DNA from: Gammaproteobacteria bacterium
GTDB lineage: Bacteria; Pseudomonadota; Gammaproteobacteria; Pseudomonadales; Azotimanducaceae
Assembly: GCA_009837725.1 (NCBI GenBank)
Contig: VXSY01000050.1
Coordinates: 1 to 35,776, forward strand
Direction of reading: 5' to 3'
Length of the DNA stretch: 35,776 bases
This document shows, piece by piece, positions 1,671 through 22,338 of the stretch. The notes beneath the pieces are model-generated. The model ran no database searches, was not told where the DNA came from, and saw only the letters and a list, made by a program, of their open reading frames with translations. Each line of letters starts with the position of its first letter. Positions within the stretch are counted from its first letter, which is position 1. The position numbers and the translations under genes were made by a program.

Positions 1671-2492
1671 TTAACCCCGGTACAGGCTTAACCCAAAGGG
1701 AGACCAAATCCCCGCCACCAGTAGGCCCCAAATAAGCCACCGCCGCAGCGACCCCCGAAGCGGACATTTCTGGCCTTCGCGCAAGATGGCCCGCAACCGG
1801 CGACGTTCTTCCGCACTTGTGCAGGCGTCGAGCGTCTTCGGTACAAATGCACCCGGGTGAGGGAGGATCACCACGGCACGGGAACGACCCCCGATGGCAA
1901 CGTCAAAGTGGACGGAACGACCACCGTCGATGTTCCAGTGCTTCGTGCAGGCATCCCTCGCGTGGGCACCGAACAAGACGATGACGCGAGCTGCGGACTG
2001 CGACAGCACTTTGTCGAACCACCTTTGTATACAGGCCGGCAGGGCATCCTTGACGCCCTGTTCGCGCTTTGACTTGCAATGCACGACCTCGGTCAAGGCG
2101 AAGTACCTGCCCTCAACCGCGGTACGTTCAAGCAACTCCGTGGCACGTTTCCGCGCGCTCGTCCAATATTTGACCCCGTTGAAGGGCATCCGCTTCGCCC
2201 AACAGCCATCCTTGTCGAAGCGACGCTGGAAGAAATCCTTCGTCTTCGCTTCGCTCCACGATGAGGTCGGGAACACCTCGTCCTCGCTGATGCTGGGATT
2301 CGAGCCCACGAACAGAATCGGGGCGCATTCGATATGACCACTCCAAGGCTCCGGCACTTGGAACTTGGCGGTGTCCCCCTCTTGGACGCCGACGATGGCA
2401 GTACAGGGGTGCGAGGGATTAACGCGGGCGTCGTCCAAGTGGCTGCATCGTGTGATAGCGATCAGCAGCTCGTCGCGCCGATGGTTCGCCAT
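1671..2492 (-). CDS. Uracil-DNA-glycosylase-like protein (predicted)
   Basis: The product is about 273 aa, and I do not recognise a named family with certainty. Near residues 60-75 is ILFVGSNPSIS, resembling the GxNP(S/G) first motif of the uracil-DNA glycosylase superfamily. Further on, EVVHCKS and a conserved Cys precede a beta strand ending VIVLFG. Near the C terminus is ILPHPG, in the position of the HPS/HPG second motif. Together these suggest a UDG/MUG fold, with DNA as a possible substrate; this is inference from motifs. The tail of about 30 residues is hydrophobic and Trp-rich. ATG at 2492 is preferred over an upstream in-frame TTG at 2504. The gene follows the nuclease gene by a gap of under 50 bp and is the last of a three-gene minus-strand unit with lower GC than its flanks. 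Confidence 0.7.
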   Translation of the reverse strand: MANHRRDELLIAITRCSHLDDARVNPSHPCTAIVGVQEGDTAKFQVPEPWSGHIECAPILFVGSNPSISEDEVFPTSSWSEAKTKDFFQRRFDKDGCWAKRMPFNGVKYWTSARKRATELLERTAVEGRYFALTEVVHCKSKREQGVKDALPACIQRWFDKVLSQSAARVIVLFGAHARDACTKHWNIDGGRSVHFDVAIGGRSRAVVILPHPGAFVPKTLDACTSAEERRRLRAILREGQKCPLRGSLRRWLIWGLLVAGIWSPFGLSLYRG

Positions 2493-2538
2493 CACTCGCC
2501 GCAATTGCCAGAGCTGTAGGCACCGATGCAGCCGTCAA

Positions 2539-3858
2539 TCATCGCGGTCGGCCGATGTCGAGTCGCCCAGGCCCCTTGCTCGTCACCAAGCTGACGCCGC
2601 TCGGGTAGTTCTCATGCGCTACACGAAGGCCGTAGTTCTCTTTACCTTGCACCCAAATGCACGGCGCGGTGTCCAGTTCGAAGAGGGCGTGATGCAATTG
2701 CCCATACGGAGAGTCGAGAAATCTGCTGCGATGCTCGAATCTGCTCTGTTTGTGGACTTCGCGAGAGACGAATGGGCTTTGCTTCGTTAGCTCGCCGACG
2801 GCCCGCTTCAACGCAAGCCCTAGTCCTCGGCAATCGAAGTCCTGCACCTCTAACGTGACGCCATTGACGCTGCGCGCTACTCCCACCTCTCCCATCGCAC
2901 TCCAGAACGCACCCGTCGCCTGCTCGCCGAAAAAATGCTCGAATGTCCTGGTTCCGGGAGCTCCCGTACTGACATTGCGTGCTTGCGGTCCTGAAATGTG
3001 CTTGAAGACGTACTCCCTATGCTGTTCCCAAAGCGCGCCATTGGTCCATGGAATTGCTGCGACGTCTAGCCAACTTATGTGTCGCAGGTGGGCATTCGCG
3101 AAGGCATTGCCTTCTCTAGCTGCGAGTTGCTCGGAGAACTCTCGGAAGGCCTGGACGGCCTTCGGAACTCGTGGCTCTTCCTCTAGCGACGCCTCGTTGA
3201 AAGGCGTAAGGAACGCAAGGGCAACGGAGTTCTGGCCGCCGAAGCTCCGGCAAAGGTCTTGCCAGTACTTCGCTAGCTGATCGCTGCGAACCGACGCGTC
3301 GACAGTTTTCACTTCCATTCCAATGGCGCGATCGTTAGCAACGTCGCGGATGAGAACGTCAATGCGGCGACCGTCGCGGAGCTTCGCCTCCGCCTTCACC
3401 TCCGCCGCAGCGGGCACGGACCAATCCGCCGGTGCCAGGAGTTTCCATACGTCCTCAAACAGCGATCGACCGCGGTGAAGACTTGCGCTCAGTGCATCGC
3501 ACACAAACTGGGAATGGAAGGGCTCTTGTCGACTGGTGACTTGCCGGATGCTCTCAAAAATGTTCAATTCTGGAAGAATGGAGCCTCGCCCGAGCACCTC
3601 ATGCCCGGCCTGGAGCTCGAACTCAACGCCTCGTGGGAGACGGCGAGTCTCATGCGGCTGCACTGCCAGTTCCAACCGGACGGAACCGTCGTAGTCTTCT
3701 GAGCCGGATGCCTCTAGTAGCACGCTCACCGGCGGACAGTCCTGGCCCGGGAAAACCGCTACACTGCTGATAGGCTCGCCACGGGCAAGGACGTCGAGCG
3801 GGCGCTCGCAAGAGGGGTGGAAACTCGCCTCAACGGCATGCTGACCCGTCCGTCTCAT
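2539..3858 (-). CDS. PD-(D/E)XK nuclease-like protein
   Basis: The product is 439 aa. A helix with FVCDALSASL and FEDVWKLL is followed by E153 or E157, then GRRIDVLI with D167, a 14-residue gap, and MEVKT with E182 and K184. This E...D...ExK arrangement is the PD-(D/E)XK active site. The following helix RSDQLAKYWQDL is also typical of the larger members. The N-terminal 110 residues look like a beta-rich domain, and the C-terminal 220 residues match nothing I know. The role is probably nucleic-acid cleavage, possibly in defence. The ATG overlaps the upstream stop (ATGA), so the two genes are translationally coupled. The lower GC suggests horizontal acquisition. Confidence 0.78.
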   Translation of the reverse strand: MRRTGQHAVEASFHPSCERPLDVLARGEPISSVAVFPGQDCPPVSVLLEASGSEDYDGSVRLELAVQPHETRRLPRGVEFELQAGHEVLGRGSILPELNIFESIRQVTSRQEPFHSQFVCDALSASLHRGRSLFEDVWKLLAPADWSVPAAAEVKAEAKLRDGRRIDVLIRDVANDRAIGMEVKTVDASVRSDQLAKYWQDLCRSFGGQNSVALAFLTPFNEASLEEEPRVPKAVQAFREFSEQLAAREGNAFANAHLRHISWLDVAAIPWTNGALWEQHREYVFKHISGPQARNVSTGAPGTRTFEHFFGEQATGAFWSAMGEVGVARSVNGVTLEVQDFDCRGLGLALKRAVGELTKQSPFVSREVHKQSRFEHRSRFLDSPYGQLHHALFELDTAPCIWVQGKENYGLRVAHENYPSGVSLVTSKGPGRLDIGRPR

Positions 3859-4160
3859 GTGCGCTCCTCCACACCAACGATGTCAACGTCGGCCAAATCG
3901 ACCACGTAAACAGCGTCGCCGATCCCATCTAGACCGTCACAGCTATACGATTCTTGGACTATGCCTTCGTGTACGTTCACGGTTACAACCCGCCCCGGAA
4001 AGCCATCGTCGAGCGCACGACCCCATGCCCACGCCGCTGTGCTCGTTCGCGCCAACCATTTGCCGTAACCACAGCTATTGGGACCGGCCCTCAGGCAGCC
4101 GAACTCGACGATGTCGTTCCACTCGACCTCCTCCACATACCTGAACAACCGCATGACCAT
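3855..4160 (-). CDS. Small orphan protein, first gene of nuclease cassette
   Basis: The product is about 101 aa with no function I recognise. The sequence begins with a hydrophobic/aromatic RLFRYVEEVEW and contains GYGKWLARTSTAAWAWG in the middle. It ends with a strand DAVYVVDLADVDIVGVEE. The KW(L/F)A...A..W pattern faintly recalls ADP-ribosyltransferase-like folds in small toxins, but this is weak. The start is set at ATG 4160 because a longer reading to 4205 would begin between the -35 and -10 of the best promoter; ATG 4154 is an alternative. It overlaps the nuclease start by four bases (ATGA). It could be a toxin, antitoxin, sensor or regulator of the two downstream proteins. Confidence 0.65.
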   Translation of the reverse strand: MVMRLFRYVEEVEWNDIVEFGCLRAGPNSCGYGKWLARTSTAAWAWGRALDDGFPGRVVTVNVHEGIVQESYSCDGLDGIGDAVYVVDLADVDIVGVEERT

Positions 4161-4185
4161 AATTTCCCAATACAGAGCACACGGA

Positions 4186-4213
4186 ATCCTACGCCCGCGC
4201 GACATACGGTCAA
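4186..4213 (-). promoter_or_regulatory. Predicted sigma70 promoter of the nuclease cassette
   Basis: On the minus strand TTGACC (4208-4213) is followed after 16 bases by TAGGAT (4186-4191), matching the -35 and -10 consensus at 5/6 and 4/6. This would place transcription about 20 nt upstream of the ATG at 4160. It is a pattern match only. Confidence 0.45.
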
Positions 4214-7842: not shown

Positions 7843-8349
7843 ATGGACGAGCAAAGACAGCGTGAACGCCGTCCCGACGCAGGCTCGCGCACCGGACGCG
7901 TTTGGGACGTTGCGGACGAAATCACGCGAGAACAGGGTCGCAAGGCCACCCGACGCGAAGTGATGGACCGCATCGTCGCCGAAGGCGGCAACGAAAACAC
8001 TGCTTCCACCCAATACCAGCGCTGGAAGACCGCCCAGGATTCCGAGGTGCGTGAAGAAAGGGCCGCCTATATCGCTTCGCCGGACACCCCTGAAGGACCG
8101 TGCATCGACCCGCGCTGGCTCAAGATCGCTGACGACGGCAGGTTGCTGATCCCCGCCGACATGCGCGCCGCCATGGGGATCGAAGACAACGTAATTCACG
8201 CGCGCGTCGAGAATGGCGAGTTGCGGCTCTTGAGCCGGGACGGTGCGGTGAGGCGTGTCCAGCGGATGGTCGCGCCCTACCGCGGCTCGGGAAGCGTGGT
8301 CGACAGCTTCATCGCGGAGCGCCGGGCTCTCTGGGGAGAAGAGGATTAG
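7843..8349 (+). CDS. AbrB/MazE-type antitoxin with N-terminal helical DNA-binding domain
   Basis: The product is 168 aa, about twice a typical MazE or VapB. Residues about 18-65 (VWDVADEITREQGRKATRRE...) resemble KfrA-like N-terminal helix-turn-helix regions. Residues about 85-145 contain a swapped-hairpin AbrB/MazE domain (LKIADDGRLLIPADMRAAMG). The C-terminal tail (GSVVDSFIAERRALWGEE) would be the toxin-neutralising segment. It is followed after three bases by a PIN toxin gene, which defines a type II toxin-antitoxin module. GGTGA at 7831-7835 supports the ATG. Autoregulation is expected through the triple half-site array just upstream. Two DNA-binding domains in one antitoxin are unusual and may explain three half-sites rather than two. 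Confidence 0.85.
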   Translation: MDEQRQRERRPDAGSRTGRVWDVADEITREQGRKATRREVMDRIVAEGGNENTASTQYQRWKTAQDSEVREERAAYIASPDTPEGPCIDPRWLKIADDGRLLIPADMRAAMGIEDNVIHARVENGELRLLSRDGAVRRVQRMVAPYRGSGSVVDSFIAERRALWGEED

Positions 8350-8352
8350 GGA

Positions 8353-8733
8353 ATGGCTGCAGTGCTCGACAGTTCCGCCGTGCTTGCGATGCTATTCAAG
8401 GAACCGGGTGCTCGGCTTGTTGCGTCGAAGATCAGTGATGCAGCTATCTCGACCGTCAACCTCGCGGAAGTGGTCTCAAAACTGATCGACGAAGGCTTCG
8501 CGCCTGCCGAGGCACGTCGAACAGCGCAATCGATACCAATGCAAGTGCACCTGTTCGACACCGAAAGTGCAGTCCAGACAGGTCTTCTCCGCGCTGCGAC
8601 CCGCGCCCACGGTCTATCACTCGGCGACCGTGCCTGCCTTGCATTGGCCGCACGCCTCGAAGCCGAGGCCGTCACGGCTGATCGGGCGTGGAGCGGAGCG
8701 GATATCGGCGTGGACATCCGCCTGATCCGCTGA
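8353..8733 (+). CDS. PIN domain toxin (VapC-like ribonuclease)
   Basis: The product is 126 aa, the usual length for PIN toxins. The four acidic active-site residues are present: D6 (VLDSSAVLA), E39 (NLAEV), D92 (SLGDRACLA) and D110 (TADRAW). This is the Mg-dependent RNase fold of VapC, which cleaves tRNA or rRNA when freed from its antitoxin. The start codon lies three bases after the antitoxin stop, so the pair is co-transcribed. AGGGA directly precedes the ATG region. The cognate RNA target cannot be predicted from sequence. The gene ends just before a strong bidirectional hairpin at 8735-8762. Confidence 0.92.
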   Translation: MAAVLDSSAVLAMLFKEPGARLVASKISDAAISTVNLAEVVSKLIDEGFAPAEARRTAQSIPMQVHLFDTESAVQTGLLRAATRAHGLSLGDRACLALAARLEAEAVTADRAWSGADIGVDIRLIR

Positions 8734-16679: not shown

Positions 16680-19600
16680 ATGCAACCCATGAACAGAGTC
16701 ACCCGTAGCAGCTTCATCGCGCTGCTTGCGCTCGCCAGCGTGGGGGCGCCGGTGACGTGGGGAAATGGCGAAGAGCTGTATCTCGAGTGCCCGTGTCGCG
16801 TGGTGGGCACCGGGGAACGGCTTACGGTTGCCGCTGGCGTGCGGAGTTTTCGCGATACCAATAGCTCGCCGCTCAGGATCGTCGTTCGGGGGCGGCGACA
16901 TCCCGAGGAGAGTTGGAACTACGATCGGCTCGGTGTCGTTCAGGTCACCGACTCCGTGCCGGCGAATGGGCGCCTGGCGCGAAAAGCGTCGTCGACTCGG
17001 TTTGACGTCAACATCGCCGGCGAACGAACGCTTGAACTCGTGCTTGAGGAACTCGAGGGCGACGACTGGGTGGAGCAGGACCGGGCGCTGATGGAAGCGC
17101 CAGTGAATCCCGCCGGTCGGTTCCGGGTGGACGATCTCGACTATCTGAAAGACACCGATGGCGATGGTGTGGCCGACGCCAACGAGACGTTGCGCCGCAC
17201 CGACCCGGATGATTCGGAGTCGACGCCAGGCCGATCCACCATCGACGTGGTGGTTCTCTACAGCGTTGGCTACGAAGAGCAATACCGCAATCCCACCACC
17301 CGCATCGCGCACCTGTTCACAGTCGCCAACGAAATCGTCGACACCAGCGGAATCGACATGCTTTCGGGTGGTGGGCGTGGCTCCCGTCGAGATCGAGGAC
17401 GAGGAAAACTCGTCGAGCCGAGTGGATGTGTCAACGGTGCGGCTGGCTGCGGAACGGCACGCCGCCGACGTGACCGTGGTGTTCCGCTCAAGCCCCGCCG
17501 ATGTGGGTTCCTGCGGCTGGTCGCCGGTGGGTGCCTACCGCAGTCGCGGGCACTTCGGCGCCGAGGAACTGCAAGTGCTCTCCGGCTGGTACGCCACGGT
17601 AGTCGGTCGCTGTTCCGGCCGCACGCTGGCGCACGAACTCGGCCACTTGATGGGGCTGCACCACTCCGTGTGGCAGGACGATTTTGGCACTTGGCGCTGG
17701 TCTCGGGGCTACGGCGTGGAGGGTGACTTCCACACCACCATGTCTTACGGCAGCGGCGGCGTCAGCATCCCCGTGTTCTCCAATCCCGAACTGAACTGCA
17801 CGGGTCTCCTGCAGGAAGAGAAGCCGTGCGGTGCCGAGCTCGACGAGGTGGACGCTTCCGACTCCACGACCAGCCTCGACGCCGTTCGCTTCCTCATCGC
17901 CGCCCATCGCAAGGGGCTTCCAGATGCCGACCGCGACGGCTTCGTCGACCCCGTGGACGCCATGCCCGACGACGCCGACGAATGGTGGGACACCGACGGC
18001 GACGGCACCGGCGACAACGCCGACCTCGATGACGACAACGACGGTCGCAACGATGTCATAGACGCGTTCCCTCGCGACGCATCGGAGACCCTCGACACCG
18101 ACGGCGACGGTGTCGGCAACAACGCGGACCCATTCCCCGAAGATGCGAGCGAAACGGCCGACACGGATGGCGACGGCGTGGGCGACAACGCCGACGCCTT
18201 TCCCGAAGACCCCGACGAATCTGTCGATAGCGATGGTGACGGCGTAGGCGACAACGCGGATGCATTCCCTCTGGACGCCACCGAGTTCGCCGACACCGAT
18301 GGCGACGAGGCCGGCGACCGGGCAGATCCGGACGCCGACGGCGACGGTGTTGAGGACGCACTGGACCTGTTCCCAGCAGATGCCGCGCGGTCTGAGCTCG
18401 CGTCCTGGCTGTTCATAGGTGAGCAGGAGGGCGACTTGCTGGGCACGGGCCTCGCCGGTGACGACAGCACCTTCGTGGTGACCGCCCCGGGATTCGATGC
18501 TAACGCGGCCAAGGATGCCGGAGCCGTCTATCTTCTTGCCAAATCGGACCTTGCCGCGCTCGATGCCGCCGACGGCACCGCCGATCGCCGCATTCACCTG
18601 CAACACGTCGAGTCAAGCGACGCCTCTTGGCGCATCGAGGGGGCCGCGGCGGGTGCCGAGGCCGGCGCCAGCGTCGCGGGCGCCGGCGACATGGACGGCG
18701 ATGACATCGCCGACGTGCTGATTGGCACACCGGGACAACGATGCGCATCCGGCGGGCGCGATTGCGGCGGCCTCGTTTTCGTCTCGGGCACAGACCTGCC
18801 GGCCGCCGACGCCGCCGATGGCAGCACCGACCGCACCGTGTCGCTCGCCGAGATTGGCGCCGAAGGCGCATCCTGGATGATTCGCGGCGCCACCACCCGG
18901 AGCCGCTTCGGCGCCAGCGTTGCGTTCGCGGGAACCGGCGACGACGGCAACTTCGACATGCTCGTCGGCGCCCCGGCCCGCACCGATGCCGCGCCAAGGC
19001 GGGCTCCCGGCACCGCCTATGCGCTCTCCACAGAGCGACTTGCCGCCGCCGACGCCGCCGACGGCGACACCGACGGCAGCATCGGAGTCGACACTCTTGT
19101 AGGCGAGCGAGGCAACTGGCAACTCACGGGCGAGGCGCGTGGAGACGCCGCAGGGTCTGGCGTGGCCTTCGTGCCGGACATCGACGGCGATGGCGAGCCG
19201 GAAGCGTTGATCGGTGCATCCCATCGGGTTGCAGACGGTCGCGCCGAGGCCGGCGCCGCCTATCTCGTATCGAGTCTTGGCCTCAGCGATGCCGATGCGG
19301 CCGACGGCAACGCAGATCGCTCCATCAGGCTAGGCCGCGTGGCCAAAATTTCCGGCTCCTGGAAGCTCACCGGCGAAGCGAGCCGCGACCGTGCTGGGGG
19401 CACGGTTTCCGCGGCCACGCACATCGATGCCGGCGTGTGGCTGCTGGCCGGCCGCCACATCGTCGCGGCGGCAGACCTCGCCTCCGCAGACGCCGGCGAC
19501 GGCACCGTCGACGGCGAAATCGACCTCGGTCGGGTGACATGGCGACCGAATTCCTGGGAGTTGCCGCGTGGAGGCCGCTACTGGCTTGCAGACGAACTGT

Positions 19601-22338
19601 ATGGGGACGGCCATCCCGTGGTCATTACGGCACGGCCTTGGGGTTTTGGAACCGTGTGGCTGATGTCTGGCGCAAGGCTCGACGCCGCCGACGGCGTGGA
19701 TGATCTCGACGGCCTTGTCGATCCCACCGGTGCGCTGGCGCGAGAACACTCATGGCGAGTGCGCGGGGCCCGCTCTACGGATCGCTTGGGCAGCATGGTC
19801 GCGCCGATTGGCGATGTGGACGGCGATGGCTCGAACGACCTGTTGCTTGGTGCCCCCGGTGGCGCAGACAGCTTCGGCCCAGGGCTTGCCTATCTGTTGC
19901 TGGCGGCGGACTTGCCGGCCCTCGACCGCGCCGACCGCAAGCACAATCGAGCAGTGCATCTTGGCAACTTCGCCGGCGACACGGACGGCGACGGCATAGG
20001 CAACCCGCTCGATGTGGACGACGATGGCGACGGCGTTCCCGATGTTTCCGACGCTTTTCCCCTCGACCCGACGGAATGGAGCGACCTCGACGGCGACTTC
20101 GTCGGCGACGAGGCGGACGTCTTTCCCGACAACGTCGCCGAAGCATTCGACACCGACGGCGACGGCATCGGCGACAACGCCGACACGGATGACGACGGCG
20201 ACGGCATCGCCGATGCAGACGATCCGCGCCCTCGCGACACGGACGACGACGGCTTGCCGAACCGCATCGATCCCGACGACGACAACGACGGCGTGGTGGA
20301 TTCGGAGGACGATCTGCCCCTCAACGCTAGCGAAAGCGTCGACACCGACGGCGACGGCCGCGGCAACCGCGCCGATACGGACGACGACAACGACGGCGTT
20401 CGCGATGCTGACGACGCCTTCCCCCTCGATGCCAGCGAAACCGTCGACAGCGACGGCGACGGCGTGGGCGACAACGCCGACGCCTTCCCGCAAGACGCCG
20501 CCGAACAGGCAGACACCGATGGCGACGGCGTTGGCGACAATGCCGACACCGACGACGATGGCGACGGCATTCCGGATGCGACGGATGCCTTCCCCCTCGA
20601 CGCAGACGCGACCCGCGACGCGGATGGCGATGGCGTGGCCAACGGCCGCGACGCCTTCCCGCGTGACGCCACAGAGTGGCGCGACGCCGACGCCGATGGC
20701 GTGGGCGACAACGCAGATACCGACGACGACAACGATGGCGTGAACGATGACGAGGACGTGTTTCCTTACGACCCCACCCGAACGTCGTTCACGTCCTATC
20801 GCTTCGAGCCGGAAGCCGGCAACGACCGGCTCGGCGTGAGCGTCGCCTCCGCCGGCGACTTGGACGGCGACGGCCGGCCGGAAGTGCTGCTCGGCGCATC
20901 GATGCACGACGAGTGGGGCGCGGTCTATGTCCTCTCCAGCCAAGACCTCGCAAGTGCCGATGCGGCCGATGGCGAGCGCGACGGACGCGTCGATGTCTCC
21001 CGCATCGCGGCGCAGCCAAACTCGTGGAAGCTCGTCGGCGAAGACGGCCTTGCGGCGGGAAGCGCGCTCGCGCCGGTGGGCGACCTCGATGGCGACGGCG
21101 TGGGCGAGTTTGGGGTGGGGGCGGCCGAACTCGTGGGCGGCGTGTATCTGGTATCTGCTGCCAATCTCGCCGCCGCCGACGCCGCCGATGGTGCGGCCGA
21201 CGGCGAGGTCAACATGGGCGAGCTCACCGAACGCACCGGGTCCTGGAAACTCACCGGGGCCTGGGGCGCCTGCATGGGGTGCAGTCTGGTCGATGTTCCT
21301 GGCGCACACCTGATGATCGGCCAGCCTGGGCGGGGAGTGGGAGACGAACCCGGCACGACGCATCTCATCGCCTCACCGGGGCTGGCCGCACTCGACGGCA
21401 ACGACGGCGATGCCGATGGCGAAATCTCAATGTCGAACCATGTCACGCGGCGCTTTGTCGGCGAACGCGAACGCGACTCGGCCGGCAACTCCTTGAGTTC
21501 TGCGGACTTCGATGGCGACGGCGAGGCGGACGTGGTCATCGCGGCGTTCGGCTTCGACGCCGACCGGCGCAACAGCGGCGCGGTCTATCTGGTCGGCAGC
21601 CGCGACTTTTCCGCCAGTCGGATCGAGCTTGGCGCCATCGCCGACGACACCCATTCATGGAAGATCGTCGGCAAGGCTGGCGGCGAGCACGTCGGCCAGG
21701 GCGTTGCGACCGGCGATGTGGACGGCGACGGCCATCCAGACCTCGTCTTCACGCAAGACAGCGGTGCGGTCGCCAACGTGGTTCTTGGCACCCGCGCCAA
21801 CCTCGCCCGGCTCGACCGCGCCGACGGCGAGCGCGACGGCGTGATCGTCAGCAAGAACGTCGGCACCCGCCCAGGAAGCTGGCGCATCACCCGTTCTCGC
21901 GACTGGTTCGCCCCCCGCGTGGTGAACGGCCACATCGCCACCATCGAGTTCGATGGTGATGGCTTTGCGGACCTGTTGGTGGGCCTGAACGATGAGTTCA
22001 CTTCCGGCGCCGCGCCGTTCGCCCGCGCCTACCTCGTCTCCGCGGCTGCCGTGGTTGCCAAACCACCAGGCGAACTGCCGGTTGCGGATTTGGTGAAGGA
22101 AGGCGCGGCCTATGCACTGTCCGAACCCTTCGACAGCGAATACGGCGAGGCAACCGTGGCGAGCGCCGGCGACACCGACGGCGATGGCCTCACCGACTTC
22201 CTCATCGGCGTGAGCTGGTGGAACACCGCCGGCACCGCATACCTCGTCAGCGCCGCCGACCTCCCCCACCTCGACGCCGCCGACGGCAGAAGGGACCACC
22301 GCATCGACCTATCCCGAATCGTCACGCCCCGGCCTTGA
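16680..22338 (+). CDS. Secreted reprolysin-like metalloprotease with TSP3 and FG-GAP repeats, +1 frameshift
   Basis: Two overlapping frames make one protein of about 1880 aa once a shift near 17361 is bridged. The first frame is open from 16680 to 17726 and the second carries on to 22338. From ATG 16689 there is a Sec signal (SFIALLALASVGAPV) and a beta-rich prodomain. The catalytic domain carries HELGHLMGLHH (H315 onward), the zinc site of metzincins, and a Met-turn TTMSYG (M351). Next come a Ca-binding TSP3 block, seven FG-GAP-like units, a second TSP3 block and seven more units. The predicted role is a large extracellular Ca-stabilised peptidase. If the shift is real and unbypassed, the first frame yields only 348 aa without the zinc site, and the gene is inactive. 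Confidence 0.85.
17355..17372 (+). other. Frameshift point in metalloprotease
   Basis: The zero frame reads GAC ATG CTT TCG GGT, and the conserved sequence resumes as TTT CGG GTG GTG GGC (FRVVG) one base later. It is equivalent to one extra base, or to +1 slippage on CTT. It is most simply a sequencing or assembly error or a recent mutation. Confidence 0.75.
17920..18396 (+). repeat. Thrombospondin type 3 repeat block 1 (coding)
   Basis: This encodes repeated DTDGDGVGDNADAFPEDxxE-type units of about 20-24 residues. The Asp/Gly/Asn loops bind Ca. The DNA is correspondingly repetitive (GACACCGATGGCGACGGC). It links the peptidase domain to the first set of propeller units. Confidence 0.85.
18397..19977 (+). 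repeat. First set of seven FG-GAP-like units (coding)
   Basis: Seven units of about 70-85 residues share the pattern sWk(l/i)xGe...G.sva..gDvDGDG..d.LiGaP...a.YLvs...L.aaDaADG.. . The number and pattern fit a seven-bladed integrin-alpha-like beta-propeller. Units four and five have lost most of the DxDGDG Ca loop. Confidence 0.75.
19978..20785 (+). repeat. Thrombospondin type 3 repeat block 2 (coding)
   Basis: This is longer than block 1, with about a dozen DxDxDG loops, many doubled as DTDDDGDG or DTDDDNDG. It separates the two sets of seven propeller-like units, probably as a rigid Ca-dependent stalk. Confidence 0.85.
20786..22310 (+). repeat. Second set of seven FG-GAP-like units (coding)
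   Basis: Seven units follow the same pattern as the first set, starting SYRFEPEAGNDRLGVSVASAGD and ending DTDGDGLTDFLIGVSW. The third unit lacks the Ca loop (it has GACMGCSL). A second seven-bladed propeller is the simplest reading. Confidence 0.75.

Follow-up and report, generated by a model that had tools for sequence, protein, structure and literature searches.

The window analysed here is the whole of contig VXSY01000050.1 (35,776 nt), one of the 303 contigs of genome assembly GCA_009837725.1 from the Azotimanducaceae. Close to one end of the contig, with the edge on the gene-3 side only 1.7 kb away from it, lies a compact group of three genes, whose features are as follows:

4186..4213, minus strand: sigma-70-like hexamers TTGACC-N16-TAGGAT, at chance level
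3855..4160, minus strand: gene 1 (P0001), 101 aa, orphan; alternative start at 4205 giving 116 aa
3855..3858, minus strand: ATGA overlap of genes 1 and 2
2539..3858, minus strand: gene 2 (P0002), 439 aa, putative PD-(D/E)XK nuclease, PDDEXK_4 at residues 99-222
3307..3315, minus strand: codons E182-V183-K184 of gene 2 (nuclease motif)
1671..2492, minus strand: gene 3 (P0003), 273 aa from ATG, UDG-fold DNA glycosylase
2088..2090, minus strand: codon of gene 3 E135, aligned with the base-reading Asn of family-4 UDG
1671..1766, minus strand: last 31 codons of gene 3 and stop, absent from most relatives, low model confidence

The arrangement given in the first-pass annotation was reproduced: three minus-strand genes, the first two overlapping by ATGA (3855-3858) and the third lying less than 50 bp further on, with 46 bp separating gene 2 from the ATG of gene 3 (an alternative TTG start at 2504 would give a protein of 277 aa). 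The overlap, the short gap and the common strand suggest that genes 1-3 form a single transcript. A promoter had also been proposed upstream of gene 1: the hexamers are indeed present, but their status as a promoter was not borne out, with one such site found in a pattern scan against 0.5 expected in shuffled sequence; the start codon of the 116-aa version of gene 1 falls within the hexamer spacer. The low GC content of the cassette was likewise recovered: positions 1671-4213 have a GC of 0.598, below the minimum of 0.638 found in 580 equally long windows taken every 50 bases and beginning beyond 4213, whilst on the gene-3 side, where the flank of 1.67 kb is too short for a cassette-length window, 500-base windows up to base 1500 gave values of 0.644-0.676. 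The longest direct repeat at the cassette edges is 7 bases. In an empty-site test, the flanking methyltransferase found a match in 59 of 61 genomes of the family, many of them weak; relatives of the other flank genes were not found beside it in 19 relative loci, with the exception of one SDR-type match of 28% identity at L051, nor in three longer stretches, and hence no insertion boundary could be read. By eye, the translations of the window revealed no defence gene besides gene 2 and a pair at 7843-8733, in which an AbrB-like ORF is followed by a PIN-domain-like ORF and which reads as a VapBC-type toxin-antitoxin pair. A 1726-aa ORF at 17158-22338 contains many D-rich repeats of the DxDGD type and reads as a large calcium-binding-like surface or secreted protein.

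Gene 3 adopts the fold of the UDG superfamily, as seen both in a profile match and in the predicted structure: its best match is to family-4 UDG, and the closest structure to the model is the family-4 UDG of S. tokodaii. The initial designation of this protein as UDG-like was therefore upheld, and pocket features resembling those of the anti-phage glycosylases of the Brig type can now be added to it. Position 135 is Glu in all 12 family sequences compared and aligns with the Asn of 4zbx (N82) and 1ui0, albeit in weak HMMER profile alignments (E 0.016 and 0.021); the Asn expected at the uracil-reading position of a family-4 enzyme is thus absent from gene 3, which otherwise shares the fold of these proteins. 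Residue 109 is F or Y in 12/12 (Y109 here), with N65 and W110 invariant, and four cysteines (C16, C30, C139 and C154) are equally invariant in 12/12, two of them aligning with Cys of 1ui0. The first two of these residues are spaced C-x13-C, unlike in family 4, where the corresponding spacing is C-x2-C. Four-Cys [4Fe-4S] clusters are known from family-4 and family-5 UDGs (available text of PMC5295032), and the protein encoded by gene 3 may carry a cluster of this kind.

According to the available part of the Brig1 report (PMC11078745), the best structural match of Brig1 is likewise the S. tokodaii UDG, and E147 of Brig1 occupies the position of N82 in that enzyme, at which other glycosylases often have Asn; E147 is predicted there to bond with the Watson-Crick face of the flipped base, and the changes E147A and E147Q affected immunity. 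Both traits of Brig1, an acidic residue reading the Watson-Crick face and an aromatic stacking residue, are present in gene 3 (E135 and Y/F109, in 12/12). Given the Glu at the position equivalent to E147, gene 3 is predicted to have a base reader of the Brig type, from which we infer a cytosine-derived base as the target. For Brig3, the accessible portion of PMC13160076 reports D127 as a pocket residue and, in comparing Brig3 with Brig1, names Q81, W122 and Q147, the last of which differs from the E147 of PMC11078745.

Five of the 12 gene-3 sequences were aligned using MAFFT with three Brig1 proteins scoring above the NCBIfam cut-off (from 3/296 genomes in the phylum to which the Rhodococcus genome G835 belongs) and with P0004, a second protein from the genome studied here. 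P47, P49, G52, N65, P66, W110, E135 and S141 are invariant in this alignment. Gene 3 and Brig1 (NF047634) have the UDG fold and the PEPxxG, NP and Glu positions in common; in contrast, the four Cys kept by the gene-3 family are missing at the aligned columns from the three Brig1 proteins and from P0004, and in the cassette described here a nuclease gene adjoins the glycosylase. Scores remained below the thresholds of both candidate families: 16.8 bits (E 0.0036) against NF047634 with a cut-off of 230, and 13.8 bits against the family-4 model TIGR00758 with a cut-off of 125.3. Alignment of the gene-3 profile with Brig1 by hhalign gave a probability of 19% (E 0.0013, 130 columns), with the motif in the second half out of register. 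Owing to this weak profile comparison and to both scores falling under their cut-offs, we class gene 3, on sequence grounds, as Brig-like without assigning it to Brig1. A match of gene 3 to a PADLOC cyclase (E 0.003) was set aside as chance. The 31-codon tail has a second-position GC of 0.59 as opposed to 0.48, a weak signal from few codons, and is possibly read-through after loss of the original stop.

The gene-3 family is patchily distributed. Among 398 genomes of the phylum it occurs only in the genome studied here, at two places, one further hit being judged spurious (it crosses a stop and lies antisense to a long ORF); among 90 genomes of the same family it was again restricted to this genome, and three other members of the genus lack the gene. 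Pattern and profile searches included, no relative was found in plasmids, phages or viral contigs, nor did two relatives of gene 3 used as queries detect anything in plasmids. Further UDG matches lie on three contigs of the genome, C22, C168 and C82, with the one on C82 staying under the cut-off; the protein on C22 is recognisable by eye as Ung from its motifs, which shows that the housekeeping role does not fall to gene 3. Contig C20 carries a broken relative of gene 3 (L007:8818-9055; 50% identity over 38 residues and 36% over 42 in another frame) next to an ORF that reads as exonuclease-like. When 229 genomes of the class were searched for the Brig1 family, only this genome was returned, on contig C248: the protein concerned, P0004 (L009:8447-9181), is a different, Brig1-like protein scoring 36.2 bits with NF047634, under the cut-off, and on reading it adjoins a very large protein and lies near a caspase-like protein, surroundings that are possibly a defence island.

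The identification of gene 2 as a putative PD-(D/E)XK nuclease held up: the protein passes the cut-off for PDDEXK_4 (PF14281; 31.7 bits, cut-off 22.3) over residues 99-222 and matches the PADLOC candidate PDC-S26 (E 1e-7) with its best stretch at residues 98-222 of 439. With both families gene 2 has the nuclease core and motif in common, although the match is confined to residues about 97-227 of 439, so that the hit to PDC-S26 falls short of full length and both ends of the protein are unassigned. D167, E182 and K184 are intact, and Q194 was noted alongside them. The name PDC-S26 was not found in open-licence papers. No relatives of gene 2 were detected in plasmids, phages or viral contigs, nor in genome contigs using exact peptide patterns, which register close relatives only; among the 398 phylum genomes it was seen in its own genome alone. 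Three further PDDEXK_4 matches lie on other contigs of this genome.

Gene 1 has a codon-position GC pattern resembling that of coding sequence. Its best family matches are at E 0.065 (Pfam) and E 0.32 (PHROGs), its best match in the PDB is at E 0.11, and profile searches of NCBIfam and PADLOC found none; an AF2 model computed without an alignment reached a pLDDT of 41. Using tblastn, nothing was found in plasmids at E 0.01, and a single hit at E 7 was obtained in phages; three plasmid hits at E 3 share one stretch of the query, and the one inspected lies within an ORF that looks flavodoxin-like on reading. Among 244 genomes of the order, gene 1 was matched in its own genome and by one other hit, which was discarded because a long ORF covers that stretch in another frame, and a motif pattern gave no hit in viral contigs and only the own genome among 115 genomes of the order. 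A steered profile returned 32 stretches from viral contigs with no relative among them and, from 149 genomes in the same phylum as G835, the Rhodococcus genome that carries locus L020, one weak hit (E 0.009) that was judged to be chance. An ADP-ribosyltransferase-like or polymorphic-toxin domain was considered for gene 1 but is backed by no search result; a role as sensor, switch or toxin, as originally proposed, is a guess.

The first-pass annotation had treated the three genes as one system. The case for this rests on gene order, overlap and common low GC, and it was not supported by a survey of 14 loci with relatives of gene 3: relatives of gene 1 or gene 2 occurred at 0/14 (tblastn, E 0.1) and PDDEXK_4 in 0/14 of the genomes (E 0.001). 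The sample is small and pattern-limited, most flanks end at contig ends and most genomes are MAGs, such that this absence is soft. Taken together with the collections searched above, in which no relatives of gene 1 or gene 2 were found, the survey gave the outcome that the annotation itself had named as speaking against a single system. A nuclease also does not appear to be needed for defence by a glycosylase, given that the host AP endonucleases tested were dispensable for Brig1 (available part of PMC11078745) and that the account of Brig3, as far as accessible (PMC13160076), mentions no nuclease partner.

We also analysed what surrounds gene 3 in other genomes. ORFs of 110 to 1200 aa were called at the 14 loci and 120 of 136, glycosylases and overlapping calls excluded, were scanned against PADLOC, with 123 families matched at E 1e-5; the neighbours scanned vary from locus to locus. 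Ten promising-looking neighbours were additionally scanned one by one, and six matched PADLOC: an AbiEii-WYL protein and a PDC-S11 protein at L019, a Schlafen-type helicase and an HNH_4 protein at L020, a CBASS-type cyclase at L024 and, as a weaker case, an HNH protein at L021. By eye, Cas proteins were recognised at L015 and L022, and L025 was read as repeating the arrangement of L020. Well-matched defence-type genes thus lie at 3/14 loci (L019, L020 and L024), with L021 weaker and three more identified by eye. The neighbour control was not clean: of 54 proteins encoded next to the methyltransferase at 19 loci of relatives, none matched Cas, AbiE or a cyclase, yet the set returned eight further PADLOC families, including mad2 (five proteins) and mad3 (E 1e-39). 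Since this control is smaller (56 versus 139 kb), stems from other genomes and itself contains eight PADLOC families, an enrichment of defence genes beside gene-3 relatives is suggestive only. At L019 (3609-5066 and 5713-6501), a relative of gene 3 adjoins the PDC-S11/DUF4268 protein, which reads like a PD-(D/E)XK nuclease, with AbiEii-WYL nearby; here a nuclease-like protein other than gene 2 accompanies a glycosylase of this family. L020 and L025, both from Rhodococcus, have a common arrangement of the gene-3 relative with HNH and GIY-YIG-like proteins, traced at L020 partly by scanning and at L025 by reading; the glycosylase copy at L025 has a broken frame.

The cassette is probably of lateral origin and probably defensive, and likely encodes a Brig-like glycosylase and a nuclease, which may be coupled. 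Our best explanation, which we hold tentatively, is that of a laterally acquired anti-phage cassette in which glycosylase and nuclease act on the same phage DNA. Gene 3, having kept four Cys like the Fe-S UDGs with Glu replacing the uracil-reading Asn, would flip out and excise a modified, most likely cytosine-derived base of incoming phage DNA and so create abasic sites; gene 2, probably expressed from the same transcript, would destroy this DNA at the abasic sites or through recognition of its own, and gene 1 would serve as an accessory. A defensive role is supported by the Brig-like E135, the separate Ung, the patchy occurrence, the low GC, the defence neighbours and the PDC-S26 match; the explanation as a whole is weakened by the trio being unseen elsewhere, the low Brig1 score and profile probability, the chance-level promoter and the imperfect neighbour control. 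It is a quite conceivable alternative, ranked after this one, that gene 3 works on its own as a defence glycosylase of the Brig-like kind, with the nuclease as an unrelated defence gene and a chance neighbour in a small island. The absence of PDDEXK_4 from all 14 genomes and of gene 1 and gene 2 relatives from all 14 loci, as well as the differing neighbours, speak for this, as does the observation that one gene of the three-gene Brig1 operon conferred immunity (PMC11078745, part available); the ATGA overlap and the 46-bp gap on one strand, suggesting a single transcript, argue against it.

A role in repair, with gene 3 as a family-4-like accessory UDG and a cassette devoid of defensive function, appears distinctly unlikely: whilst such an enzyme would be in keeping with a UDG fold best matched by family 4 and with the conservation of four Cys, of which two align with 1ui0, Glu replaces the uracil-reading Asn in 12/12, the genome already encodes Ung as well as a further two UDG matches (one under the cut-off), the score with TIGR00758 is far too low and the family is missing from the rest of the phylum and family genomes searched. 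We consider an addiction or conflict module, with gene 1 or the nuclease as a toxin against the host chromosome and the others as control parts, very improbable; a small first gene overlapping the second is in keeping with such a module, yet the matches listed for the three proteins, from which most of those above E 0.1 had been filtered, include neither a toxin nor an antitoxin family, and the gene 1 model, at its pLDDT, is unusable. That the arrangement is decaying or due to chance, gene 1 not being a real gene, the end of gene 3 degenerate and the cassette a remnant, seems scarcely credible: the orphan first gene, the tail missing from most gene 3 relatives and the broken copy on C20 could be read in this way, but the named active-site residues of genes 2 and 3 are intact and gene 1 has its coding-like codon-position GC.

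Amongst known systems, Brig3-BapA (PMC13160076, accessible portion) resembles the cassette in that a glycosylase shares an operon with a second enzyme, with the acidic D127 in the Brig3 pocket. Restriction glycosylases of the PabI type also use base excision as a means of restriction, to which AP endonucleases can add strand breaks, but differ in their HALFPIPE fold and in methylation-guarded site recognition (available text of PMC10273834). Further anti-phage glycosylases, Brig2 and Dag1/Dag2, are named in the part of PMC13216743 at hand, and a figure legend of PMC13092281, likewise available in part, includes UDG among the domains of predicted systems; among open-licence papers, none was found that describes a UDG-fold glycosylase paired with a PD-(D/E)XK enzyme. 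Returning to the anti-phage cassette, a bolder version of this explanation is that gene 3 represents an undescribed branch of anti-phage glycosylases across archaea and many bacterial phyla, in which the Fe-S Cys were kept and Asn was exchanged for Glu, and which here would act with a dedicated PD-(D/E)XK nuclease cutting its abasic sites in a two-step restriction; we regard this version as unlikely. If true, it would link the Fe-S UDGs of the repair type with the defence glycosylases of the Brig type via a single base-reading switch, and would represent base-excision defence equipped with its own nuclease, an arrangement not encountered in the open-licence literature. The exchange of Asn for Glu moreover leads to substrate predictions that are directly testable in vitro.
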